Of a stretch of 33,693 nucleotides of DNA, positions 9,573 to 33,684 are shown in pieces (within the stretch, counting starts at the first letter, position 1; every line of letters begins with the position of its first letter). The stretch comes from Gemmatimonadota bacterium (GTDB lineage Bacteria > Latescibacterota > UBA2968 > UBA8231). A program made the translations under genes and the position numbers. Under the pieces are notes generated by a model. The model made no database searches. It was not told where the DNA came from and saw nothing but the letters and a program-made list of their open reading frames with translations. The stretch is from the NCBI GenBank assembly GCA_002724215.1, contig PBOD01000089.1, positions 30,661 to 64,353 on the forward strand, read 5' to 3'.

Positions 9573-10442
9573 ATGCGCTTCGGAATGTGCGGCGCTTTTT
9601 TGCCGGGCAATATGGACAACTTCACCCCCGAGATTGCCGAACGGGTCAAATCGCTCGGCTTCTCTGGCGTCTTCACCCGCTTTTCCCAGAACGACCCCTT
9701 CGACACCAGCCCCGCCCAATGCCACCGCCTGCGCGACCTGCTCGCCGACCAAGGCCTGCACCTCTACCAAGTCACCGGCTATTGGCAACCGCTGATGTCC
9801 CCCGACGAGAGCTTGCGCCGCGAGGCCGTGCGCACCCTGCAAGCCGCCGTGCGCATCGCCCACCAGCTCGGCGCCCGCGGCATCGACACCGGCCCCGGCT
9901 CGATGAGCCCCGACGGCCCCTGGATGCCCCACGGCGACAATTGGAATCCCGAGGTCAAGGACCAGCTGATCAAATCGCTGCGCGAATGCGCCCAGACGGC
10001 AGAAGACCACGGCATCTACATCAGCCTCGAAGGCCACCAGGTCGTGGTCCTCGACAACGCCGAAACCACCCGCGAGGTCCTCGACGCCGTCGACTCACAC
10101 TGGGTCCGCAGCGACCTCGACCCGGCCAACTGGATCACCCTCAAGACCGTCTTCGACACCGGCACCGCCATCGACGAAATGTTCGACACTCTGGGCGACC
10201 ACATCGTCAGCGGCCACGCCAAGGACATCTCCATCAACCCCTCGCACATCATCCACATGCCCACCAACGCCCCGGGCACCGGCCAGCTCGACTTCGCAAC
10301 CTATATTCGCCGTCTGGAAGCCCTCGATCCCACCTATCCGCTCATCGTCGAGGGCGCCAGCGCCGAGCAGTTGCCCGCCACCAGCCAGTTCCTCCACCAG
10401 ACCGCCGCCGACCTCGGCATCGCAGTGCTCGACAAGCCATGA
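9573..10442 (+). CDS. Sugar phosphate isomerase/epimerase-like TIM barrel (xylose-isomerase-like)
   Basis: The 289-residue protein matches the AP-endonuclease-2/xylose-isomerase-like barrel: MRFGMCGAFLPG at strand 1 and the metal ligands expected for the family at SLEGH (Glu153), SDLDP (Asp181 or Asp183), SGHAKD (His215) and IVEG (Glu260). Relatives include IolE/IolI-type inosose enzymes and ketose 3-epimerases; the substrate is unknown. GGGAGG lies before the ATG. Its TGA overlaps the ATG of the SET-domain gene (ATGA), so the two are translationally coupled. It is divergent from the propeller gene on the left, with about 100 bases between, which suggests shared control. Confidence 0.85.
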   Translation: MRFGMCGAFLPGNMDNFTPEIAERVKSLGFSGVFTRFSQNDPFDTSPAQCHRLRDLLADQGLHLYQVTGYWQPLMSPDESLRREAVRTLQAAVRIAHQLGARGIDTGPGSMSPDGPWMPHGDNWNPEVKDQLIKSLRECAQTAEDHGIYISLEGHQVVVLDNAETTREVLDAVDSHWVRSDLDPANWITLKTVFDTGTAIDEMFDTLGDHIVSGHAKDISINPSHIIHMPTNAPGTGQLDFATYIRRLEALDPTYPLIVEGASAEQLPATSQFLHQTAADLGIAVLDKP

Positions 10443-10822
10443 CCGAAATCAAATCCTCGCCCCACATCGGCCGCAGTGCCCGCGGTGTCTTCGCCCGCCG
10501 CACCTTTCACCCGGGCGATGTCATCGAAATCGCCCCGGTCATCCTCATTCCCAATACCCAAAGAGCGCTAATTAGGCAGACGGTTTTGGAAAACTACGTC
10601 TTCGACTGGGGGGGCGGCTCTACGGCCGTGGCCCTGGGCTACGGCTCGCTCTACAACCACGCCTACGATCCCAACGCCCACTACTGCCAAGATATCGACA
10701 GGAAAACCCTGGAATTTTCCGCCATCCGCGATATCGCCGCGGGTGATGAGATCACCGTTAACTACAACGGCAGCTCCGAATCCTCGCTGCCCATGTGGTT
10801 CGAAGTCAAAGACCGCGACTAA
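10439..10822 (+). CDS. SET-domain protein
   Basis: The 127-residue product is essentially one SET domain. After a GRSARGVFARRTFHPGDVIE opening come the SAM-binding and pseudoknot motifs NHAYDPNA (residues 73-80, the NHxxxPN signature) and AGDEITVNYN (101-110, with the catalytic-type Tyr109). SET domains transfer methyl groups to lysine, though bacterial free-standing ones have few known substrates. Its start overlaps the stop of the sugar isomerase gene by four bases. Its stop overlaps the stop of the converging aldolase gene by two bases. There are no post-SET cysteines. Assignment to the family is strong; the target is unknown. Confidence 0.85.
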   Translation: MTEIKSSPHIGRSARGVFARRTFHPGDVIEIAPVILIPNTQRALIRQTVLENYVFDWGGGSTAVALGYGSLYNHAYDPNAHYCQDIDRKTLEFSAIRDIAAGDEITVNYNGSSESSLPMWFEVKDRD

Positions 10823-11577
10823 GCATCCTTCGTCACCGCGTCCAGTTCCGCCAGCTTTTGCTGCAGGAAATTGATCGGCTCGGCGATACACAAAAAGTGA
10901 AAGCCCTCCGCCACCAGCGTTGGCCCGTCCCCGATCCGCCACATGGTCTTACCGGCTTTGACGCCGGCGGTTTTTATCGCGGCGACCGCGTCGCGCATCT
11001 GGGCGTGGTCCATATCGAAGCACACGCCCAGATCCGCCGATAGATCGTAGGGTCCGATGGCAATCGCAGTGGTCAACTCGTGCGCGGCGATGGTCTCGAC
11101 ATTAGCCAGCCCCGCGCGCGTCTCGATCTGCGGCAGCACGATAAAGTCGTCTTCCACCTCTTCTTGCCAGCGGTCGTAGTGAAAACTCGACACCCAGGCA
11201 TTGCCCGGGCCGCCGGGACGCCGGCGGCCCCGCGGCGGCATATAGATGGCGTCGCGCACCCGGTCCAATTCTTCCGCCGACTCGATCCCCGGCAGCAAAA
11301 ATCCGCACGGCCCGCGGTCGATCGCCTGGCGAATCGTCGCATAGGCGCAATCTATGGGCCGCACGATCACCGGAAAATCTACCATCCGGCCCAGGGCGCA
11401 GACCTCGGCCACCAGTTTGTCGTCGTGGACCCCGTGCTCTTGGTCGATGATCAAATAGTCGAGACCGGAACGCATCAAGCACTCGACCAACCCCGGCCAC
11501 AGCAGATCGGTCGCCAGCGCGCCGGTGGTAATTTGGCCGGCGGCGACTTTATCTTTGAGCAATTTCGCGGCTTTCAT
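10819..11577 (-). CDS. HpcH/HpaI-family aldolase (2-keto-3-deoxy acid aldolase)
   Basis: 252 residues, the usual length for class II HpcH/HpaI aldolases. The signature DQEHG (Asp45, Glu47, His48), the substrate Arg in VIVRP (Arg73), and the metal ligands in LPQIETRAG (Glu152) and IGPYDLS (Asp178) are all present. Such enzymes cleave 2-keto-3-deoxy sugar acids to pyruvate or a related keto acid and an aldehyde. GGAGGAG precedes the ATG. It is the last gene of the minus-strand cluster running from 18633, right after the MFS transporter, which fits the terminal step of a sugar-acid route. The exact substrate is unknown. Confidence 0.9.
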   Translation of the reverse strand: MKAAKLLKDKVAAGQITTGALATDLLWPGLVECLMRSGLDYLIIDQEHGVHDDKLVAEVCALGRMVDFPVIVRPIDCAYATIRQAIDRGPCGFLLPGIESAEELDRVRDAIYMPPRGRRRPGGPGNAWVSSFHYDRWQEEVEDDFIVLPQIETRAGLANVETIAAHELTTAIAIGPYDLSADLGVCFDMDHAQMRDAVAAIKTAGVKAGKTMWRIGDGPTLVAEGFHFLCIAEPINFLQQKLAELDAVTKDA

Positions 11578-11598: not shown

Positions 11599-12831
11599 TT
11601 ACGCGCGGCGATCGGGGGGCGGTGTCGCCCCCGGCGCCAGCAGCGCCAGCGCTGCCGCCAATCCCGCGCATCCCCATAGCACTTGCTGGAACCCGCCGAA
11701 AAAATCAAAGGCCGCGCCCATGATAAACGGCCCGACCCCCGACGACGCCACCCCGATCGTCGATACCGAGCCGCGGATCTTGCCCAGGTGCCGGCGCCCG
11801 TAGTAGCGCACCCACATCGTCTCGCCTACCGATACCAACAGACTGCTGCCCAAGGCCGAAAAGATCGGGAAGACCAGCGGCAGCCACACCGGGTCCAGTT
11901 CGTTGAGCGCTACCAGCCCCAGACACTGGGCAACCAGCGCCACCGACAACAGGAGATTCAGTCGGAAGCGATCGGCCAACACGCCGGCTAAAAAGCGCCC
12001 TCCCGCCATCACCACGGCGTAAACCGAAAACATCTTCGCCACCGCCGCCGCATCTAGCCCGCGCCCGGCAAAGATCGACACGATGTGGAATTGCACCCCC
12101 GTGCCACTCATCGACCACGAAGCCATGCAGCAGACCGCGATCCAGTAGCTGCGCGCGCGAAAGACCTCGCGCAGCGTATAGCCCGGATCCTCGACCTGGA
12201 CGGGCGTTTGGCCGTCGCCGACCCAGCCGCCATCGGGCACTTGCCCCATATCCTCGGGCCGGTTGCGGAAGACGAAGACCAACAGCGGGAAGACCAGCAG
12301 CCAGACCAAACCGCCCAAAATTGCATAGGCCCCGCGCCAGCCATAGGCCTCGATCAACGCGATGCTCAGCGCCGGAATGCCGCCGATGGCTACGGCGAGT
12401 CCCACACTAGCCATGCCGCTAGCGGTGCCCAGGCGCTTGTTGAACCACATCGCCAGCGCGTTGCGCGCCATCATGCTCATCGCACCCTGGCCCAACAGTC
12501 GCAAAAAAAAGAACGCCATAAACAGCGTCACCAGCCCCGACACCTGCGTCATACCCAGGCAGGTAATACCGAACAGAAAAACTACTCCAAACAATACGCG
12601 GCGCGGACCGTAGCGGTCCATCAGCGCCCCGACATAGGTCAGCGGCAGCGATGCCAGTATCGTGCCCAGAGCATAGGCTCCGCTCAACTCGCTGTTCGAC
12701 AGCGAGAGCGCCTCGCGCAAATAGGGATTAAAGACGGCGATACCGTAGGTCTGGCCCGGCGAGGTGCAGATGCTGATCAGCGTCACCACCGGTAGCATCA
12801 CCCAGCCGTAAAAGAAGGGCAGGCGGCTCAT
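11599..12831 (-). CDS. MFS transporter (monocarboxylate/oxalate-formate-antiporter-like)
   Basis: The 410-residue protein is strongly hydrophobic throughout, with about 12 membrane segments. It has the loop 2-3 motif GALMDRYGPRR (69-79) of the major facilitator family and an N-terminal FYGWVMLPVVTL helix typical of the monocarboxylate/OFA branch. It probably carries an organic or sugar acid across the inner membrane. It is the only complete transporter in the window. It lies 21 bases before the aldolase gene and about 40 after the binding-protein gene in the same cluster, so the transported acid may be the cluster's substrate. Confidence 0.85.
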   Translation of the reverse strand: MSRLPFFYGWVMLPVVTLISICTSPGQTYGIAVFNPYLREALSLSNSELSGAYALGTILASLPLTYVGALMDRYGPRRVLFGVVFLFGITCLGMTQVSGLVTLFMAFFFLRLLGQGAMSMMARNALAMWFNKRLGTASGMASVGLAVAIGGIPALSIALIEAYGWRGAYAILGGLVWLLVFPLLVFVFRNRPEDMGQVPDGGWVGDGQTPVQVEDPGYTLREVFRARSYWIAVCCMASWSMSGTGVQFHIVSIFAGRGLDAAAVAKMFSVYAVVMAGGRFLAGVLADRFRLNLLLSVALVAQCLGLVALNELDPVWLPLVFPIFSALGSSLLVSVGETMWVRYYGRRHLGKIRGSVSTIGVASSGVGPFIMGAAFDFFGGFQQVLWGCAGLAAALALLAPGATPPPDRRA

Positions 12832-20348: not shown

Positions 20349-21332
20349 ATGTACATCGGAACACAACTCGGCCACCAGACCGACGAAGAAATGCAGGTCC
20401 TGTCCCAACTCGGCGTCCTCAATGTCGATGAGACCCCAGCCACGCCGTGGAAGGAGTGGACGACCGCCATGCTGGTGCAGATGAAGGAGCGCTGGGCCCA
20501 GCACGGCATCAGCATGGAGATGATCCACATTCCCCTGGGCTCGCGCCGGGCCTACGATATGGAGGCCGGCGCTATCTTTCTCAAACCCAGCGACGAGCGC
20601 GACCGCCAGATCGACTGGATGAAGGAGACCGTGCGCATGGCTGGCGAAGCCGGCATCCGCGGCCTCAACTACAACATCACCATCCTCGGCCACCTGCGCA
20701 CCCCCTCGCAGACCGGACGCGGCGGCGCCGTGGTCTCAACCTTCGAGCTGGACAAATTAGATCAATCGCTGCCCGAGTTCGAGGACGGTCCGGCCGATGA
20801 GGACGAGATGTGGGAGCGCATCAATCACTGGCTGCAGGAGATCATCCCGGTGGCCGAGGAATACAAGGTACAGATGGCCTGTCACCCCTCCGACCCCGGT
20901 ATCGGCGTCGGCAATACGTATCGCGGCGTGGCGCGTCCCCTGGGGATGGTCGAGGGCTTCAAAAAGCTCATCGAGCTCTACGACAGCCCCTACAATGGCT
21001 TGAACTTCTGCCAGGGCTGCATGTCCGAGGCATTGGAAAACCCGGCCGAAGAGATTTTCGACGTGATCCGCTATTTCGGCGAGCGCAAGAAAATCTTCAA
21101 CGTCCACTTCCGCAATATCAAGGGCGGGCTGGGCAATTTTGTCGAGGTCTTCCCCGACGAGGGCGATGTCAATATGCTCAGGGCGCTGAAGGTGTACAAA
21201 GAGATCGGCTATGAATACATGATCATGCCCGATCACGTGCCCGGCATCTCTGGACCCGAGCCGGGCAAGGTCGGCTTCGCCTATACATTCGGCTATATTC
21301 ACGCGGCGCTGCAGGCCGTGGAGGAGAGCTGA
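20349..21332 (+). CDS. Mannonate-dehydratase (UxuA)-like enzyme, copy 1
   Basis: The 327-residue barrel protein carries the UxuA metal set His-Cys-His-Asp: ACHPSD (His179), NFCQG (Cys221), NVHFRNIKGG (His253) and MPDHV (Asp295). It also has the family stretch FVEVFPDEGDVNM. UxuA dehydrates D-mannonate to 2-keto-3-deoxygluconate; this shorter, divergent form may use another aldonate. GAGAGGAG lies eight bases before the ATG. It is followed by a BNR propeller gene with almost no gap. A second copy lies at 29701-30672 and shares long identical stretches around the ligands, so the two are paralogs with probably related substrates. Confidence 0.85.
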   Translation: MYIGTQLGHQTDEEMQVLSQLGVLNVDETPATPWKEWTTAMLVQMKERWAQHGISMEMIHIPLGSRRAYDMEAGAIFLKPSDERDRQIDWMKETVRMAGEAGIRGLNYNITILGHLRTPSQTGRGGAVVSTFELDKLDQSLPEFEDGPADEDEMWERINHWLQEIIPVAEEYKVQMACHPSDPGIGVGNTYRGVARPLGMVEGFKKLIELYDSPYNGLNFCQGCMSEALENPAEEIFDVIRYFGERKKIFNVHFRNIKGGLGNFVEVFPDEGDVNMLRALKVYKEIGYEYMIMPDHVPGISGPEPGKVGFAYTFGYIHAALQAVEES

Positions 21333-24439: not shown

Positions 24440-26362
24440 TCACACCGCGTGGTCGAACTCCGCCGCCGCACTCGCCGGCACGCCCCCACGCACCAGCGCT
24501 TCCCAGCACTGTACCGGCACTTCCCCCAACAACTCCAGCAGCCCATCGCGCAAATAACCGACAGACGGCGCACCTGGCGTATCCGGCGCCTCCTGCCCCT
24601 CAGGGTGCAGATAAGCCAACCGCCCCAGGGCGTCCATCGCGAAGCCGACGTTGATCACATTCTGGTCGGTTCGCACCACTTCTTTCAGTCGTGCAATCGC
24701 CGGTGCCAGCACGTCGCCGAGGACAGCGCTGCCATGCGAACACAAAATCACCGCCGACCACAGCGCGTTTTCGCGCACCGCCGAGCGCCCCGCCGCAAAA
24801 CGCTCGATACCGTAATCCACCCCACCACCCTCGCACACATCGCACTCGTCGGTCGGCCGCACGAATTTTATGCTGCGCCCCTGCGCCCGGTCCATCGCCG
24901 GCCGATTCTCCTCGCGCTCCAGACTCTCCATCAGCGTCTCCAAGCACGTCGGCACCAGTTCAACACCAACGCCCGTAGCCACCGCCCTGCGCCCCAGACA
25001 GCCCAGCGTCCCCGCAGCCACCGCACGGACATAGACCGAGGAATCCTCCTCGAGCCGGGTTTTTACCGCCTCGAGTACCTCTGCCGTCAACGGGCTGGCA
25101 TCGCCGAGGCCGTAAACCCCCGCCTTGCGCACCCACTTGATCGGGGAGCGCGCAGCCTCCAAGAAAACCTCCGTCGCCTCCTCACCCACCGCGATCAAGC
25201 CGTAGGTCGCCGCGCGCCGCACGCTCTCGCGATCGGTATACAGCGCCTTGCGCAGTTGCTCCACCGCCAGCGCTGTATCCCCGAGCGACGCCAGCTTGTA
25301 CGCCGCGCCGATCCGCTGCGGCTCCCGGTCCTCGCCCTTCTCGTGCAATTGCGCGAATAGGCGCTCCGCTTCCGTCGCGCGCTCGTCGGCCGCCACCTTG
25401 CGCGGCGGCGGCGCCTGCCCCGTCTGCATCCAGTGATGGTGATAGCGCCACACCGTCGTCACATCGTCGCCAGCCCCATTCAAGTCGACGCCGGTCAACG
25501 GATCCACCCCACCCCAATCGACCTCGCCCGGCGCGTCCCCCGCGCCATCCGTGGTCCGGTAGATCCAAAACCGCCACATAAAGCGCGGGTTGTCCTGCCA
25601 GGTGCGCCAATCGTCGCGGCGGTGGTTGCCGCGATGGTAAGTATTGTGCGAATAGAGCACCACACTGCCGGCCTTCAGCGGCCCGGCCTCAAACTGCTGC
25701 ACCAGCGGCCAGCCGGTGTTGGTTACGGCCTCGCGCATGCGGATATCGTGTTGGGTGGTCTGGTTGACGATGTCCTCCGGATCGTAGGGCGAATCCGGCC
25801 CGTTGATCTGCACCCCCTCCATGCCTTCGAGCTGGTAGTTGAAATCCAGGTGGTCGGCACCGGCGAAGTTGTCGTGGTTTTCTTCGTGATTTAGAGCCCA
25901 GTAGTGCGAGTAGGGAATGGTCGCAGTCGGACCCATATCCGCTTTGACCTCCTGTGGATAGTAGAGCATCTCGATCTGCACCGCCTGGTGGTGGCGCTGC
26001 TTGCGGCCGTTGAACGGCCCGTTGTCGTCCTTGTGCCAGTGCTGGTCGCGGCCGCTACTGGCAAAGGTCGCATTGTGCGTAAACGGCACAATCGCCCAGT
26101 GCTCGCCGACGATGCGATTGCAGGCCGCGACCACGCCGGGAGCATTGATAACCGTCAGGACGTCTTCGATCAGTCCCGGCGTGACCCGCCGTCGCGCCGC
26201 GACCGCCTCTTTCTCCCGCGCATGCACCCGCGCATGCACTTCCAGCGGAATCCCCAGATCCTCCGGCGCCAGCGCCACCATGCCCCGATAGGCGAAGTCC
26301 TGCACCAGACGGTCGGCCGCGGTATAGGCTATTGATGCCGTGTTTTCGTTTGCTGCGCTCAA
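24440..26362 (-). CDS. PhyH-type Fe(II)/2-oxoglutarate dioxygenase fused to HEAT repeats
   Basis: About 640 residues. The first 320 resemble phytanoyl-CoA dioxygenases: iron ligands His110 and Asp112 in QHWHKDDNG, the distal His243 in NTYHRGNH and Arg residues after it for 2-oxoglutarate. From about 345 to 590 there are helix-pair repeats of the HEAT type (for example ESVRRAATYGLIAVGEEA and IKWVRKAGVYGLGDAS), with an inserted CDVC. I chose TTG 26362 because GGAGGAAG stands at ideal spacing and the GTG at 26410 overlaps the upstream gene. It would hydroxylate a small molecule or bound protein partner; the repeats may dock a partner. It sits in tandem with a second PhyH gene. Confidence 0.8.
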   Translation of the reverse strand: MSAANENTASIAYTAADRLVQDFAYRGMVALAPEDLGIPLEVHARVHAREKEAVAARRRVTPGLIEDVLTVINAPGVVAACNRIVGEHWAIVPFTHNATFASSGRDQHWHKDDNGPFNGRKQRHHQAVQIEMLYYPQEVKADMGPTATIPYSHYWALNHEENHDNFAGADHLDFNYQLEGMEGVQINGPDSPYDPEDIVNQTTQHDIRMREAVTNTGWPLVQQFEAGPLKAGSVVLYSHNTYHRGNHRRDDWRTWQDNPRFMWRFWIYRTTDGAGDAPGEVDWGGVDPLTGVDLNGAGDDVTTVWRYHHHWMQTGQAPPPRKVAADERATEAERLFAQLHEKGEDREPQRIGAAYKLASLGDTALAVEQLRKALYTDRESVRRAATYGLIAVGEEATEVFLEAARSPIKWVRKAGVYGLGDASPLTAEVLEAVKTRLEEDSSVYVRAVAAGTLGCLGRRAVATGVGVELVPTCLETLMESLEREENRPAMDRAQGRSIKFVRPTDECDVCEGGGVDYGIERFAAGRSAVRENALWSAVILCSHGSAVLGDVLAPAIARLKEVVRTDQNVINVGFAMDALGRLAYLHPEGQEAPDTPGAPSVGYLRDGLLELLGEVPVQCWEALVRGGVPASAAAEFDHAV

Positions 26363-26388
26363 ACTATTCTTCCTCCGTTCGCGGCGAA

Positions 26389-27114
26389 TCAAATCGCCCA
26401 GTGGTGCCACGGGTCTGCCGGTATGGACCGCCGCACGCCGGCATCATCCTCGTGGACCCAGCGGGCGAAGAAGCCCACGCGCGGTGTCGCGTTTACATTA
26501 GTCGAGCCGCTGTGGCATAACCAGCCGTGCCACAAGATCAGATCACCCGCCCGGGCGACAAACTCCCGCGGCGGCTCGGGGCCGTCGTCGGAAAAAATGC
26601 CCCAGCCGCGCTCGTCCCACTCGGGCGTCTCGCGGAAAGTGCCCTCTATGCGGTCTGGATACTGGCGAAAATAGCGGTGTGCGATATGGTGGCTGCTGGG
26701 CCAGTATACATAGGCGCCGCCGCCGGGCTCGACATCGTAGAGATAGGTCGTGGCGCCGACCATCAGCACCGCCTGGCAGCCCTCACCTGGATAGCCATCG
26801 AGATGCCCCGATGCCGGCATCGCCCATGTCTCCGCTGACTTCGGCCAGCGCACGGCCACCCCGCAACCACCGCCGCTGAACCGGCCGCCGCCGACCTGGG
26901 CCGCGATCGCCTGCAATTGCGGCAAGTCACCAAAGATCGGCTCGGGTTTAAAACCCTCGACCTTGTCGGGCCACTGGTCCGGGTCGTCGAGGGTGCAGCC
27001 GAGATGGCTCCAGAACTGGTCGCGCCATTGGGCGACCAGTGCCGCATCGACAAAACCGGGTAGGATCAGATGACCGTCGGCCTTAAAGGCATCGATCTGT
27101 TCGGCGTTGAGCAT
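26389..27114 (-). CDS. Phytanoyl-CoA dioxygenase-family protein
   Basis: 241 residues from ATG 27114, which has GGAG eight bases before it; an upstream in-frame start at 27153 would run into the previous gene. The family pattern is kept: EQIDAFKADGHLILPGFVD at the N-terminus, iron ligands His104 and Asp106 in GHLDGYPG, His201 in WLCHSGSTN and Arg212 in NATPRVGFFARW for 2-oxoglutarate. It is thus a probable Fe(II)/2-oxoglutarate oxygenase in the cytoplasm. The substrate is unknown. It lies four bases after the enolase-superfamily gene and 26 bases before the PhyH-HEAT gene. Confidence 0.88.
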   Translation of the reverse strand: MLNAEQIDAFKADGHLILPGFVDAALVAQWRDQFWSHLGCTLDDPDQWPDKVEGFKPEPIFGDLPQLQAIAAQVGGGRFSGGGCGVAVRWPKSAETWAMPASGHLDGYPGEGCQAVLMVGATTYLYDVEPGGGAYVYWPSSHHIAHRYFRQYPDRIEGTFRETPEWDERGWGIFSDDGPEPPREFVARAGDLILWHGWLCHSGSTNVNATPRVGFFARWVHEDDAGVRRSIPADPWHHWAI

Positions 27115-27118
27115 CAAA

Positions 27119-28375
27119 TCAACTCCACCAGATAGGCAGGTCGTGGCCCGCAAATACCGGATTGGTCTTGTAATACGGCCCGGGATTCCACGGAAACTTC
27201 TCCGCGATATCGTCGATCAGCTCGACGCCGTAGCCGGGCTTGTCGGGTATGGTCAAAACCCCGTCCGCAATCGGGTACGGGTCTTTGAAGATCTCCCACT
27301 TGAGCGGATTGTAGGTCTGGTTCAATTCGCACATATGGCCGCAGGGCACCCCGGCAACCAGATGGATGTTGGGCACGGTCGTCAGTCCGCCGACCCAATT
27401 GTGCGGGCAGTAGTACTGACCGTGCTTATCGATCACCTGGCCGACGTGCCAGCCTTCGGTAATACCGCTCAAGTTGGCATCGACCTGAACGATATTCATC
27501 GCCCCGTTCGCGACGAAGGGCTCGACCTGGTAGCGGTTCCACCAGCTCTCGCCGCCCGATACCATCACCGAAGGCATCGCCTCGTTGATCGCCAGGTGCC
27601 GCTCCAGTGCCGCTGGACTATTGGCCTCGACCGGCTCCTCGTACCAATAGAATTTCAACGCCTCCAGCGCCGGGCACAGCTCGTTGATGATCGTCTCAAA
27701 ATCCCAGGGGAATTTCTCCAGCACCAATCTGAAATCCGGTCCCACCGCCTCGCGCAAGTGCTCCAGCACCGGAATGTACTTGTCCATGGTCATACCGCTG
27801 TACTGCCAACTGGTCCCGTTGCGGAATTTGAAAGTGTCGTAGCCGGCTTCCTTGTAGCGCAGCGCCTCCTCGATCAGCTCTTGCTCGCCATTGTCGTACC
27901 AGGCGTGGCAGACGCCGCCGCTGGCGTAGATCTTTACCCTATTGGATGGGTTTTCATCGTGCGACAACAACTTGTAGACCGGTTGGCCCTTGGCCTTGCC
28001 AATAATATCCCACAGCGCGTTGTTGACCCCCGCCCAGGCGCCCTCGGCCAGCGCGTTGTGCCCCTGGTTGTTGGTCAGAAAATCGACGTCGAAGACATTG
28101 CGACCTGTCAACAGCGGGGTGATGTACGCGTCGGTGTATTCCTTCAATCGATCCGGCCCGCGATAGGGACTACCCTCGGCGATGCCGACGATGCCCTGAT
28201 TGGTGAAAATCTCCACCAGTGCCGCGTCCGACTTCCATACGTAGAGCCCGCCGCAGCGCCACAGATACTCGCCATCGTGGGTATAGGACAGCGGCGTGAC
28301 CTTTATGTCGGAGATGGTGATATCTTCGCGCTCCAGCCCCTCGGCCGGATGGGCGCGATGGGCGCGATCACTCAT
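27119..28375 (-). CDS. Enolase-superfamily (mandelate racemase/MLE-like) sugar-acid dehydratase
   Basis: 418 residues with the capping domain and barrel of the mandelate racemase group. Metal ligands appear at Glu220 (LVLEKFPWDF), Glu246 (YWYEEPV) and Glu276 (SGGESW); the usual first ligand is Asp, here Glu. The base pair Asp299 (VQVDANLSG) and His325 (YCPHNWVGG) fits a His-Asp dyad dehydratase or epimerase. The second-strand motif is FKFRN where KxK or KxH is common. The reaction would be proton abstraction next to a carboxylate of a sugar acid. Its ATG overlaps the TGA of the RidA-family gene (ATGA), so they are coupled. Confidence 0.85.
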   Translation of the reverse strand: MSDRAHRAHPAEGLEREDITISDIKVTPLSYTHDGEYLWRCGGLYVWKSDAALVEIFTNQGIVGIAEGSPYRGPDRLKEYTDAYITPLLTGRNVFDVDFLTNNQGHNALAEGAWAGVNNALWDIIGKAKGQPVYKLLSHDENPSNRVKIYASGGVCHAWYDNGEQELIEEALRYKEAGYDTFKFRNGTSWQYSGMTMDKYIPVLEHLREAVGPDFRLVLEKFPWDFETIINELCPALEALKFYWYEEPVEANSPAALERHLAINEAMPSVMVSGGESWWNRYQVEPFVANGAMNIVQVDANLSGITEGWHVGQVIDKHGQYYCPHNWVGGLTTVPNIHLVAGVPCGHMCELNQTYNPLKWEIFKDPYPIADGVLTIPDKPGYGVELIDDIAEKFPWNPGPYYKTNPVFAGHDLPIWWS

Positions 28376-28815
28376 TGCGCAATCTCAAAGATGCCTTCGA
28401 CCTCGACGGCAACGCCCGTCGGCAGCTGCGCGAAACCCACCGCGCTGCGCGCGTGATAGCCGTCGCCGTCCTTGCCGAAGATTTCGTGCAAGAGGTCGGA
28501 GGCGCCATTGATCACTAAGTGCTGGTCGGTGAAGTCCAGCGCCGAATTGACCATACCCAAAAGCTTGATAACCTTTAGCCCGTCAAGGCTGCCGACCTCC
28601 TGGTGCAGCGACTGCAAAATCGCCACGGCGCACTCCCGAGCCGCCTTGTAACCCTCATCGACGCCGAGATCGTCGCCGAGCTTGCCCTTGATGTCTGACA
28701 CGTGGCCCGAGGCATAGAGCATATTGCCCGAGCGGGCGACCATATTGAGATAGCCTTTTTCCGCGTCGTCGGTGAATTCTAAACCCAGTTCTTTGGCTTT
28801 GGCTTCCGCGCTCAT
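28372..28815 (-). CDS. RidA (YjgF/UK114)-family protein
   Basis: 147 residues with the RidA family features: NMLYASGHVSD near the N-terminus, the YKAARECAVAILQSL helix, and the C-terminal HARSAVGFAQLPTGVAVEVEGI holding the conserved Arg (Arg123) of enamine/imine deaminases. Typical RidA hydrolyses reactive 2-aminoacrylate-type enamines; this one may do so or may act in a sugar-acid route. AAGGAGAG precedes the ATG. It heads the minus run towards 22593 and faces the aldolase operon across 144 bases. It is translationally coupled to the enolase-superfamily gene. Confidence 0.88.
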   Translation of the reverse strand: MSAEAKAKELGLEFTDDAEKGYLNMVARSGNMLYASGHVSDIKGKLGDDLGVDEGYKAARECAVAILQSLHQEVGSLDGLKVIKLLGMVNSALDFTDQHLVINGASDLLHEIFGKDGDGYHARSAVGFAQLPTGVAVEVEGIFEIAQ

Positions 28816-28959: not shown

Positions 28960-29682
28960 ATGGCAAAATCGCTCAGGCAGCGCATGCAGGACGGCGAAGT
29001 CCTCACCGCCATGCGCGGCTCGCTCAGCACCCGCAAAACAGAATTGGCCGCTATGTGGGCGACCGGCCGCTACGACTACATCTGGATCGACAGCCAGCAC
29101 ACCCCCTACAGCGACCAGCTGCTGGTCGATTATTGCCAGGCAGCCGGGGAATTGGGCATCGATGTCCAGCTCCGTATCCCCCATACGCGGCAAGCCCATA
29201 TGGTCGGTCGCTTCCTCGACTTCGGGCTCACCGCCGTGCTGGTCCCCGAGGTCGAAGAGCCCGAAACCGTCGACGACGCCATCGCCTACGCCTACTACGG
29301 GCCGATCGGTCGCCGCAGCTGGGGCGGCCCGACCCGCAAAGGCTTCAGCCAGGGCGTCGATCGCCACGAGTATTCCGCCTGGTGGAACGATACCGTAGTG
29401 CTCGGCATCCAGGTCGAATCGGTCGAGGCGGTGACCAATATCCACAAGCTGGCCAAACCCGGCGTCAGCGTCGTCACCTTCGGCCCCAACGATCTCTCCT
29501 TCAGCCTCGAAGCCCACCCCGGCTTCCCGTTGCAGGACGTCGACGCCTGCATGCGCAATGTCGCCGCGCAGCTCAAAAACACCGGCATCCGCCTGGCCAT
29601 GGGCACGGCAACCCAACCCGAAGAGCGCGACAAATACGTCGACATGGGCTTTACGCTCTTCCAGGACAATATGCCGGACTGA
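28960..29682 (+). CDS. HpcH/HpaI-family aldolase
   Basis: 240 residues of the class II pyruvate-aldolase fold. Visible are IDSQH (Asp44, Gln46, His47; the family usually has Glu at 46), the substrate Arg in LRIPH (Arg72), and the metal ligands Glu153 in LGIQVES and Asp178 in FGPNDLS. It would cleave a 2-keto-3-deoxy sugar acid. It differs widely from the copy at 10819-11577, so it is not a recent duplicate. GGAG precedes the ATG. It is first in a five-gene plus operon with two dehydratase-like genes and two amidohydrolases, which places it as the last step of an acid-sugar pathway. Confidence 0.88.
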   Translation: MAKSLRQRMQDGEVLTAMRGSLSTRKTELAAMWATGRYDYIWIDSQHTPYSDQLLVDYCQAAGELGIDVQLRIPHTRQAHMVGRFLDFGLTAVLVPEVEEPETVDDAIAYAYYGPIGRRSWGGPTRKGFSQGVDRHEYSAWWNDTVVLGIQVESVEAVTNIHKLAKPGVSVVTFGPNDLSFSLEAHPGFPLQDVDACMRNVAAQLKNTGIRLAMGTATQPEERDKYVDMGFTLFQDNMPD

Positions 29683-29700
29683 CCAGAAAGGAATTTGGCT

Positions 29701-30672
29701 ATGTATGTAGGCGTACAGGGCATCGGCACTTCTCAGCACGAGCTGCACTTTCTCCTCCGTCACGGCGTCACCCACATGGACACGCAGGTCGATCCCGACA
29801 ACCTCGACCGCATCGCGCAGCAGCGCGAGGAAGCCGCCGCTGAAGGCGTCGAGCTCGAAATGATGCACATCCCCATGCCGGAGAGCATCACTTTCGCTGA
29901 CGACACGCGACGCGACCGCGACCTCGACACCTTGTGCACCTGGGTAGAAGCCGCGGGCAAAGCCGGCCTGCGCGGACTCAACTACAACTTCACCGTCGTA
30001 GGCTACCAGCGCACCCCCAACCGCTACGGCCGCGGCGGTTCCGTCTACAGCTCCTTCGAATTCACCAAATACGACAACGACGAGCCACATCCCGGCGGCA
30101 GGATCGACCGCGACGAGATTTTCGCGCGCATTGCGTATTTTTTAGAGCGCGTCATACCCGTCGCCGAGGAATACAAAGTGCAAATGGCCAGCCACCTGCC
30201 CGACCCGCCCGCACCCGAGCTCCGCGGCGAGGTGCGCTGGAACTACCCGGTCTTCGATGGCCTTAAACGCTTCTCCGAGCTGACCGACAGCCCCTATCAC
30301 GGCTTCAACTTCTGCTGCGGCGTAGCCGCCGAGGGCCTCGAAGACCCCGGCAGCGAGCTACCGCCGATCGTCGAATACTTCTCCGAGCGCAAGAAGATCT
30401 TCAACGTCCACTTCCGCAATATCAAGGGGGGCCTGGGCGACTTCGTCGAGGTCTGGCCCGACGAGGGCGATGTCGATATGCACGAGCTGGCGCGAATCTT
30501 CCACCGCACCGGCTATCCCTACATGCTGATGCCCGACCACTCGCCGGGACATCCCGACGATCCGCCACATCCGGAAGGCTCGGGCCGAGTGCGGCAAGGC
30601 TGGGCTTTTCAGTTCGGGTATATCCGGGCGTTGATCCAGGCGGTGACCAAGGAAGCTAAAGGCCTCGCCTGA
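29701..30672 (+). CDS. Mannonate-dehydratase (UxuA)-like enzyme, copy 2
   Basis: 323 residues from ATG 29701 (AGAAAGGAA before it; a TTG two codons upstream is possible). The ligand set matches copy 1: His165 in MASHLPD, Cys205 in NFCCG, His237 in NVHFRNIKGG and Asp279 in MPDHS. FVEVWPDEGDVDM is also kept. It should be an aldonate dehydratase of the UxuA fold with a divergent pocket: the loop after His165 and the PGHPDDPPHP segment near the end differ from copy 1. It lies between the aldolase and the galactonate-dehydratase-like gene, as expected for a route making a 2-keto-3-deoxy acid. Confidence 0.85.
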   Translation: MYVGVQGIGTSQHELHFLLRHGVTHMDTQVDPDNLDRIAQQREEAAAEGVELEMMHIPMPESITFADDTRRDRDLDTLCTWVEAAGKAGLRGLNYNFTVVGYQRTPNRYGRGGSVYSSFEFTKYDNDEPHPGGRIDRDEIFARIAYFLERVIPVAEEYKVQMASHLPDPPAPELRGEVRWNYPVFDGLKRFSELTDSPYHGFNFCCGVAAEGLEDPGSELPPIVEYFSERKKIFNVHFRNIKGGLGDFVEVWPDEGDVDMHELARIFHRTGYPYMLMPDHSPGHPDDPPHPEGSGRVRQGWAFQFGYIRALIQAVTKEAKGLA

Positions 30673-30735
30673 CCGGAAATAATGATATAACTAGTGTTAG
30701 CCAAATCTATTTTCTGAGAAAGAGAGGAATCCCGC

Positions 30736-31860
30736 ATGTCCGACAACCAAGGGCCCATCGGTCCCAACGACGATATCAAGGTTAGCAAAATCGAAACCTT
30801 CGTCCTCAAAAACTCCTGGGTCTTCGTCAAGATCTCCACCGATGTCGGCATCGTCGGCTGGGGCGAAATGCTCAAAGACGACGCCAAAGCCTGCGCCGCC
30901 GGCGCATTGGAAGTAGCCAACTACCTCGTCGGCCAGGACCCGCGCAAGGTCGCCTTCCACTGGCAGGCCATCCACCGCGGCGCCTTCTACCGCGGCGGTC
31001 CTATAAAGACCGCCATCTCCTCCGGCATCGACATGGCGCTGTGGGACATCACCGGCAAGTGCCACGGCGTACCCGTCTACAAGCTGCTCGGCGGCCCCAC
31101 CCGCGACAGCGTTCGCTGCTACGGCCACGTCGACGAGAAGACCGGCGTCAACGCCATGAAGGTCGGCCCGAGTCCCTCGCGCAAGGCCTCCAAATACATC
31201 GAGGGTCCGCTCTTCATCGGCGAATGCGTCGAACACTTCAAGGCCCTGCGCGACAAGTACGGCGACGGTGTCGACATCGGCGTCGACTTCCATGGCGCCG
31301 TGCAACCTCCGACGGCTCTCCAGCTGGTCAAGGCACTCGAACCCTACAACCCCTGGTTCTACGAGGAAATCGTCCAAGCCCTCAACATCGACGTGATGGC
31401 CGAAATAGCCGCCAAGACCCATATCCCCATCGCCACCGGTGAACGCATCTTCACCAAGTGGGGCTTCAAGGAGCTCTTAGAAAAACGCGCCGCCACCATC
31501 CTCCAGCCCGACATCTGCTACGCCGGAGGCATCACCGAACTGCGCATCATCGCCGGCCAGGCCGAGGCCTATTACTCGCCACTGGCCCCGCACAACCCGC
31601 AGGGCCCCTGTTCGCTCGCCGCCAGCCTACAAATCGCCGGCTGCATCCCCAATTTCATCGCCCAGGAGCGCGGCGACAACGAATACGAGGAAATCCTCGC
31701 CGAGCCGCTACCACCGGTAAAAAACGGCCATCGACCCTTACCCACCAAGCCCGGCCTCGGCATCACCATCGACGAAGACAAGCTCATGGGCATGGTCGGC
31801 GAGCCCCATCCCTACATGCCGCAATTCGACGAGGACGACGGGTCGGTCGTAGACTGGTAG
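30736..31860 (+). CDS. D-galactonate-dehydratase-like enolase-superfamily enzyme
   Basis: 374 residues. The barrel shows Asp184 and His186 in GVDFHGAV, Glu210 in FYEEI, Glu236 in ATGERIF, Asp259 in LQPDICYAGG and His286 in APHNPQGP. This order and spacing match DgoD-type galactonate dehydratase (three acidic metal ligands, a His acid after the first, and a His-Asp dyad). It would dehydrate an aldonate to its 2-keto-3-deoxy acid, the substrate class of the aldolase two genes upstream. GAGAGGAATCCCGC lies before the ATG. The exact sugar cannot be told. The active-site set is complete. Confidence 0.85.
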   Translation: MSDNQGPIGPNDDIKVSKIETFVLKNSWVFVKISTDVGIVGWGEMLKDDAKACAAGALEVANYLVGQDPRKVAFHWQAIHRGAFYRGGPIKTAISSGIDMALWDITGKCHGVPVYKLLGGPTRDSVRCYGHVDEKTGVNAMKVGPSPSRKASKYIEGPLFIGECVEHFKALRDKYGDGVDIGVDFHGAVQPPTALQLVKALEPYNPWFYEEIVQALNIDVMAEIAAKTHIPIATGERIFTKWGFKELLEKRAATILQPDICYAGGITELRIIAGQAEAYYSPLAPHNPQGPCSLAASLQIAGCIPNFIAQERGDNEYEEILAEPLPPVKNGHRPLPTKPGLGITIDEDKLMGMVGEPHPYMPQFDEDDGSVVDW

Positions 31861-31866
31861 GCCCTC

Positions 31867-32694
31867 ATGCGCATCGACTCCCACGTCCACGTCTGGACCA
31901 TGGGCGAGCCCCCGTGGCCCCACAACGACGACATGTCCTCGACCAGACCCGACTATCCGGGCCTGGTCGAGGATCTCATCCGCTTCATGGATCTCAACCG
32001 CATCGACCGCACGGTCCTGATCCAGTGCATGTACCACGGCTACGACAATAGTTATATGGCCGATTGCCTCAAGCGCTATCCCGAGCGCCTGCACGGGGTA
32101 GCACTGCTCGACCCGAAGAAACCCGACACTCCCACCGAGCTGGAGCGCCTGCACCGCGAACACGGCGTGCAGGGCATGCGACTGTATCCCATCATCGACA
32201 AAGACGCCTCCTGGCTGTCGGACGAGGGGCAGAACGCGCTGTGGGCGACGGCCGAGCGGCTGAATGTGCCCTTTACCTGGTTTGGGCGCTGCCACCAGAT
32301 CCCGCTACTGGAGCCAATGCTGGAGCGCTTCCCGTCGGTCAACGTCATCGTCGATCACCTCGGCGAACCCATCCTCGACCAGGGACTCGATGGCGATTTC
32401 AGGCTGTTGCTCGACGCCGGCGCCCGCCACCAGAACCTCTACATCAAAGCCACGCGCATCGACGGCCTCTCCACTCAGCCCTGGCCGCACGCAGACATCC
32501 ACCCCTACATCAAAGCCGTCTACGAGGCCGTCGGCCCCGAGCGCATGCTCGGCTGCACCGGCTTCCCCGAAAACCCTCAGCGCGGCGAAGCCGTTGGCTT
32601 CCGCGTCGTCGAAGAGGCATTGGATTTTCTCTCGGCAGATGACCAGGCGTGGCTACTTGGCAAAACCGCTGCGGCGCTCTACGTCAAAGAATAG
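31867..32694 (+). CDS. Amidohydrolase-2 family protein, probable lactonase relative, Asp of strand 8 missing
   Basis: 275 residues starting MRIDSHVHVW (His6, His8). The fold follows the amidohydrolase-2/COG3618-type barrel, with IVDHLGEP (His164) at strand 6. Relatives open sugar lactones or split other C-O and C-C bonds. At strand 8 the usual GSDFP or GTDLP reads GCTGFP, so Gly232 stands where the catalytic Asp should be, and a His is also not evident in VPFTWFG at strand 5. It may therefore be inactive or use other residues. It starts six bases after the dehydratase gene and precedes a second amidohydrolase. Confidence 0.8.
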   Translation: MRIDSHVHVWTMGEPPWPHNDDMSSTRPDYPGLVEDLIRFMDLNRIDRTVLIQCMYHGYDNSYMADCLKRYPERLHGVALLDPKKPDTPTELERLHREHGVQGMRLYPIIDKDASWLSDEGQNALWATAERLNVPFTWFGRCHQIPLLEPMLERFPSVNVIVDHLGEPILDQGLDGDFRLLLDAGARHQNLYIKATRIDGLSTQPWPHADIHPYIKAVYEAVGPERMLGCTGFPENPQRGEAVGFRVVEEALDFLSADDQAWLLGKTAAALYVKE

Positions 32695-32703
32695 GAATAC
32701 GCC

Positions 32704-33684
32704 ATGTCCCGCCTGCTGCCCGCAGACGAAGAATTCTTCGCCCGCGAAATAGACGCCTTCCTTCCCGACCGCGTCTTCGACGCCCACACCCACCTTTGGA
32801 AGCAATCCTTCGTGCCCTGGTCGATCGCGGGCGGACCTGCAGATGTCGGCCATGCCGAATATCTGCAATTGATGCAGGATATCCACCCCAACCGCGAGGC
32901 CGGCGCACTCTTCATCCCCTCGGTACAAACCGACGGCTCTGGTTCCTTCACCCCGCCTAACGAATGGGTCGCCGAAGCTTCCGCCCAATCGGACGCCTGC
33001 CGCCATTTGTTTTTCATTCGCCCCGAAGACGACCCCGAATGGGTGCGCCAGGAGGTCAAACGCCTCGGCGCCCACGGCCTCAAGTGCTACCACACCATGG
33101 CCCCAACCCAACCCACCTGGGAAGCCGACATCCCCGCCTATCTGCCCGAGCAGCACGTGCGCATCGCCCACGAGGAAAAGCTCGTCATCACCCTGCACAT
33201 GGTGAAAGCCCGCGCCGTCGCCGACCCCTCCAACCAGCACTGGATCCGCCACTACTGCGAGCAATACCCCGACATGCGGCTGATCTTAGCCCACTCGGCG
33301 CGCGGCTTCCAGCCCGCCCACAACCTCGAGGGCCTGGCCGCCCTTTCAGACCTCGACAATCTCTACTACGACACCAGTGCCAACTGCGAGCCCATCGCCC
33401 ACCAGGCCATCATCCGCCTCTGCGGTCACCACAAGCTGATGTACGGCACCGACCTGCCCGTCAGCCACGGGCGCGGCCGTTCGCTCTCGGCCGCCGACGC
33501 CTTCCTCTGGCTCTACGCCGACTCGCCGGTGTGGGGCGAGAAACACATGGCCATCCAGCCCGTTTTGACCGGTTTCGAACACCTGCGCTCGCTCAAATGG
33601 GCCTGCTGGTCGGAGAAGTTAAGCGACGCGCAAGTCGAGGATATTTTCTGGCACAACGCGGCCGAGTTGTTCGGCGTGCGTTAG
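32704..33684 (+). CDS. Amidohydrolase-2 family protein
   Basis: 326 residues with an intact set: VFDAHTHLW (His28, His30), GLKCYHT (Lys127 region), VITLHM (His165), LAHSARG (His197) and MYGTDLP (Asp250). It is therefore likely a metal-dependent hydrolase, lactonase or decarboxylase of the barrel superfamily. It begins nine bases after the preceding amidohydrolase gene, and TAGGAA precedes its ATG. It closes the five-gene operon as seen; the window ends nine bases after its stop, so further cistrons may follow. As the intact one of the pair, it is the better candidate for lactone opening in the route. Confidence 0.85.
   Translation: MSRLLPADEEFFAREIDAFLPDRVFDAHTHLWKQSFVPWSIAGGPADVGHAEYLQLMQDIHPNREAGALFIPSVQTDGSGSFTPPNEWVAEASAQSDACRHLFFIRPEDDPEWVRQEVKRLGAHGLKCYHTMAPTQPTWEADIPAYLPEQHVRIAHEEKLVITLHMVKARAVADPSNQHWIRHYCEQYPDMRLILAHSARGFQPAHNLEGLAALSDLDNLYYDTSANCEPIAHQAIIRLCGHHKLMYGTDLPVSHGRGRSLSAADAFLWLYADSPVWGEKHMAIQPVLTGFEHLRSLKWACWSEKLSDAQVEDIFWHNAAELFGVR

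Follow-up and report, generated by a model that had tools for sequence, protein, structure and literature searches.

The window analysed here, a 33,693-nucleotide stretch of a Latescibacterota genome (G000:C8:30661-64353; contig PBOD01000089.1 of assembly GCA_002724215.1), carries a run of five intact open reading frames (ORFs), all on the plus strand and spanning positions 28960-33684. They encode, in order, a 2-keto-3-deoxy acid aldolase, a UxuA-like protein, a DgoD-like dehydratase and two amidohydrolases. Our tentative reading, held with a probability of roughly 0.4, is that the run serves the breakdown of sugar acids imported from seawater, either as a single operon or as two modules set side by side. 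In it, the DgoD-like enzyme would dehydrate an aldonic acid, and the aldolase would cleave the resulting 2-keto-3-deoxy acid, yielding an aldehyde and pyruvate. The UxuA-like protein would supply that aldolase by a different entry route; it would be a metal-dependent enzyme, a dehydratase or an epimerase, whose acid/base group is altered. Amidohydrolase 2 could hydrolyse an upstream lactone, amide or ester, and amidohydrolase 1 would be a COG3618 relative that either acts without the classical catalytic Asp or binds its ligand instead of hydrolysing it. The run is operon-like and of a known kind, in a new combination of genes, and its function is one that we infer.

A core of dehydratase and pyruvate aldolase is chemically plausible, judging from the sequences. 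Because the aldolase and the DgoD-like protein keep all catalytic residues checked, dehydration followed by pyruvate release is a plausible course. The aldolase (28960-29682, plus strand, 240 amino acids (aa)) is of the HpcH/HpaI type (class II), a family in which His and Arg, together with a metal-binding Glu and Asp, form the active site. All four are in place in an alignment to YfaU (PDB 2vws) and 3qz6, as they are in the orthologs. The enzyme shares these residues with YfaU, GarL and HpaI but differs from them in falling far below every equivalog cut-off, so its substrate is not assignable. The DgoD-like protein (30736-31860, plus strand, 374 aa), an acid-sugar dehydratase of the enolase superfamily, passes the curated galactonate dehydratase profile NF010624 (360.1 bits against a cut-off of 311) and keeps D184, H186, E210, E236, H286 and E311, the metal ligands and acid/base His. 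Its predicted structure, with a predicted local distance difference test (pLDDT) score of 84, has DgoD (PDB 3rr1) as best solved match, at a template-modelling (TM) score of 0.84. Fold, six active-site residues and curated score are thus those of DgoD, whereas barrel helix alpha-1 is missing across the whole subfamily: in each of the 18 aligned sequences a stretch of about 20 residues is missing after the first barrel strand and before the second, and the model passes from strand 125-129 straight to strand 140-143. By both alignment and predicted model, the (beta/alpha)7-beta barrel is incomplete.

The layout fits expression as a unit. Successive genes are separated by 18, 63, 6 and 9 bp, and the three shorter spacings (6-18 bp) suggest that the genes are transcribed together. 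Of the five genes, at least those for the aldolase, the UxuA-like and the DgoD-like protein have an AGGA-like ribosome site ahead of them; a scan found no consensus promoter inside the run, and terminator-like sites within it are no more frequent than by chance. For the UxuA-like gene, ATG 29701 is preferred over the listed TTG 29695 because the orthologs align from there. Beyond the window the contig continues with a minus-strand gene, which sets the end of the run at 33684. Pfam matches are all above cut-off: HpcH_HpaI (58.7 bits), UxuA (112), MR_MLE_C (199) and Amidohydro_2 (134 and 60 for the two amidohydrolases).

The UxuA-like protein (29701-30672, plus strand, 323 aa) is a metal-dependent TIM barrel, modelled with a pLDDT of 94.9. 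Mannonate dehydratases supply its three closest folds (TM 0.81-0.88, E 1e-17 or better), with sugar epimerases well behind (E about 1e-9). Fold, four metal ligands and one further His are common to this protein and UxuA mannonate dehydratase (PDB 3ban, 1tz9, 4eac), whose family number is presumably COG1312. Residues H165, C205, H237 and D279 correspond to His199, Cys237, His266 and Asp310 of Streptococcus suis UxuA, which we take to be metal ligands, and H280 aligns with His311. All five are kept in orthologs and most paralogs, and the ligands are invariant or nearly so. The differences are an Arg in place of S. suis Tyr325, which we take to be catalytic (positions counted in the 3ban alignment), an identity of only about 19-25% in the fold alignment, and scores under the curated cut-offs (50.5 bits against 199.55 for TIGR00695; 90 against 191 for a subfamily model). 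Given the Tyr-to-Arg change and the TIGR00695 score, an ordinary mannonate dehydratase is not supported. The protein may instead carry out dehydration by another chemistry, or it may be an epimerase. An epimerase or isomerase would leave a single dehydratase in the operon, a proposal that overlaps with our preferred one. The match to the xylose-isomerase-like barrel PF01261 (40.6 bits), the rank of epimerases as next fold matches and the missing dehydratase Tyr speak for it, but UxuA is far closer than any epimerase in both fold and sequence, and we regard it as rather doubtful. Related genes occur elsewhere: a second UxuA-like paralog in the window (20349-21332, plus strand), 48% identical to the copy in the run, adjoins BNR-repeat and fatty-acid desaturase genes, and three UxuA-like genes stand in tandem in a relative (G035:C37, 147451-150555).

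The two amidohydrolases are not recent duplicates of each other. Amidohydrolase 1 (31867-32694, plus strand, 275 aa), a COG3618-like Amidohydro_2 protein, aligns with LigI-type enzymes and keeps the HxH motif and beta-6 His of COG3618 lactonases (H6xH8, H164). Where relatives with a beta-8 Asp read WGTDFP, it reads LGCTGFPE. The corresponding LigI residue, Asp248, is presumably the catalytic beta-8 Asp, an assumption based on general knowledge and on chains altered at that position in the alignment. It is absent from 20 of 20 clade sequences (the protein itself and 19 orthologs), and about half of 20 paralogs with 30-39% identity keep it; in the others the position is Asn, Gly or a gap. Because of this clade-wide loss, amidohydrolase 1 was no longer read as a LigI-like lactonase. 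Together with the paralogs L306-L308, L294 and L304 (motifs WGTGYPGHH and WGTNFP), it shows that these genomes hold more than one COG3618 subfamily in which the beta-8 Asp was lost. Amidohydrolase 2 (32704-33684, plus strand, 326 aa) is an ACMSD-type Amidohydro_2 protein with its metal site kept (H28xH30, H165, H197, D250). It is without a close solved relative; since its matches, gamma-resorcylate decarboxylase among them, are only weak, hydrolase and decarboxylase are both possible.

Several observations weigh against a single sugar-acid operon. Transporter, dehydrogenase and regulator genes are absent from the run, and two of its proteins, the UxuA-like one and amidohydrolase 1, are each missing a residue that characterised relatives require. 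Conservation is patchy: in a search of all 47 available genomes of the class, the five genes stand together in none of the 46 besides their own, and amidohydrolase orthologs occupy other, unrelated neighbourhoods, lying near each other only in G035, about 5 kb apart. Across the 46 relatives, these orthologs show no positive association with the other three genes. None of 80 named loci holds the five-gene set either, in a scan queried with the UxuA-like protein only, which would miss a distant genome that carries the other four genes without a close UxuA-like ortholog.

It is almost as likely that two modules merely abut. Here, a conserved aldolase-UxuA-like pair and a trio of DgoD-like and amidohydrolase genes, joined by rearrangement in this lineage, would be unrelated and would not form one pathway. 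Such pairs do occur without the remaining genes: orthologs of the two are adjacent in G005 and G006, and in other genus members (G001, G003, G004, G007, G008, G009 and G010) the aldolase adjoins the other, paralogous UxuA type. G006 has its DgoD-like gene on the other strand, some 2.5 kb from the pair, and neither amidohydrolase ortholog is present on that contig. The amidohydrolases' attachment to neighbours of their own and the position of the widest gap, 63 bp and AT-rich, between the UxuA-like and DgoD-like genes point the same way. Yet L211 (JABIQT010000301.1), an independent metagenome-assembled genome (MAG), has these two genes side by side on the same strand, with 81 and 87% identity to those of the run. 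Aldolase and DgoD-like orthologs moreover co-occur in 12 of 12 cases among the relatives (p = 3e-6, a value not corrected for kinship), and the short gaps suggest common transcription, all of which favours a single sugar-acid operon. In G006, a phnW-phnY-phnA-like aminoethylphosphonate cluster (L055, 4581-8375) stands divergent to the aldolase-UxuA-like pair; its PhnW and PhnA pass curated cut-offs and PhnY just misses. These phn-like families are also present in G005, and the same place in the window holds a RidA gene and an enolase gene.

The earlier note, which had correctly recognised a tight plus-strand run and the families of its genes, proposed a fuller pathway, in which two lactonases, two dehydratases acting on two acids and one aldolase splitting their products would work together. 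The family content agrees with this scheme, and known routes pair a COG3618 lactonase with an enolase dehydratase and an HpcH aldolase (PMC10444878). The scheme depends on two lactonases and on two dehydratases of ordinary type; one protein of each pair fails the residue test, and support is only partial. Of the proposed dehydration and splitting, the part carried by the DgoD-like protein and the aldolase is supported, and an ordinary mannonate dehydratase role for the UxuA-like protein is not; nor, given the missing Asp throughout the amidohydrolase 1 clade, is lactone opening by both amidohydrolases. Conservation of the gene set, whose absence the note itself had named as refuting, was not seen in the other 46 genomes of the class. 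The note's point that the run has no kinase holds for these five genes. Elsewhere in the genome, about nine kinases of the PfkB type are encoded, so that a kinase-free run is by itself no pointer to a non-phosphorylative route and was discarded as evidence. The pathway in its full form appears improbable.

Among named genomes, the best relatives are MAGs classified under Latescibacterota or Gemmatimonadetes, and their bin names point to largely marine sources. The families of the run are greatly expanded in this genome, with 26 matches of the UxuA-like type, 22 of the aldolase-like and 23 of the amidohydrolase-like type. Enolase matches number 43, with 109 candidates at a first look, and there are about nine candidate lactonases of the SGL type. 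The grouping of the five genes looks like more than chance, though the families are very common here. An assembly chimera, with module junctions as MAG artefacts, might be suspected from a 5.85-Mb bin of 266 contigs and from a gene set unique to this genome. The junctions, however, have spacings of 6-63 bp and intact reading frames, and the UxuA-like/DgoD-like junction is seen again in the independent MAG. A 432-aa enolase gene that follows the cluster in G000 also adjoins the UxuA-like gene in G006. Misassembly is accordingly judged very unlikely.

Upstream of the aldolase, a divergent cluster begins with a RidA/YjgF-family gene (28372-28815, minus strand), which was not seen beside the aldolase in the relatives examined. 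It is followed by a gene for a second enolase-superfamily protein (27119-28375, minus strand), 23% identical to the DgoD-like protein. Further away, a 656-aa PhyH dioxygenase fused to HEAT repeats is encoded at 24440-26410 (minus strand), and several genus members have a relative of it close to the aldolase or divergent from it. A second HpcH/HpaI aldolase of the window (10819-11577, minus strand) adjoins an MFS transporter gene (11599-12831, minus strand), and the two possibly form a separate sugar-acid module. Judged by eye, a short ORF at 10439-10822 (plus strand) resembles a small SET-domain protein.

Each genome of the uncultured marine Latescibacterota encodes dozens of sugar-acid enzymes, and the conserved aldolase-UxuA-like pair offers a small unit open to assay. 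A bolder proposal, which we hold to be unlikely, is that the recurring pair, accompanied in some genus members by an adjacent PhyH-HEAT dioxygenase gene, represents a new catabolic unit of these bacteria. Its UxuA-fold enzyme with Arg for Tyr325 would catalyse a reaction different from mannonate dehydration and so feed the aldolase, alongside a DgoD subfamily without helix alpha-1 and a COG3618 subfamily that works without the Asp. The absence of Tyr325, beta-8 Asp and helix alpha-1 from these proteins cautions against transferring names such as mannonate dehydratase or lactonase on family membership only.

Among known systems, the closest parallels are sugar routes that join the same enzyme families. 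A literature search on Latescibacterota with these families returned no match. For SAR202 group I, non-phosphorylative L-fucose and L-rhamnose pathways have been proposed that involve COG3618, COG4948, COG3836, COG1028 and others, and fucose, rhamnose and the corresponding lactones and acids supported better growth (PMC10444878). These marine heterotrophs have in common with our run the COG3618-type amidohydrolase, enolase dehydratase and HpcH aldolase families, as well as large paralog sets (PMC10444878). Their routes differ in also using dehydrogenases, which the run is without, and COG1312 is not mentioned in the paper (PMC10444878). A lactonase, enolase dehydratase and HpcH aldolase route had thus already been proposed, and the earlier note's impression of a layout unlike known pathways does not hold. 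The bacterial L-fucose route, according to the passage of PMC6336799 that cites Hobbs 2013, uses a COG3618 L-fucono-1,5-lactonase and, as described there, pairs a COG3618 protein with an acid-sugar dehydratase, as in the run. Amidohydrolase 1 differs from the lactonase of that route in scoring 38.5 against a cut-off of 400 for it and in having no catalytic Asp. Every family of the run is already known and the five-gene combination is new; the novelty of the layout is small and lies in the added UxuA-like gene, the only unusual member, together with three residue-level departures.

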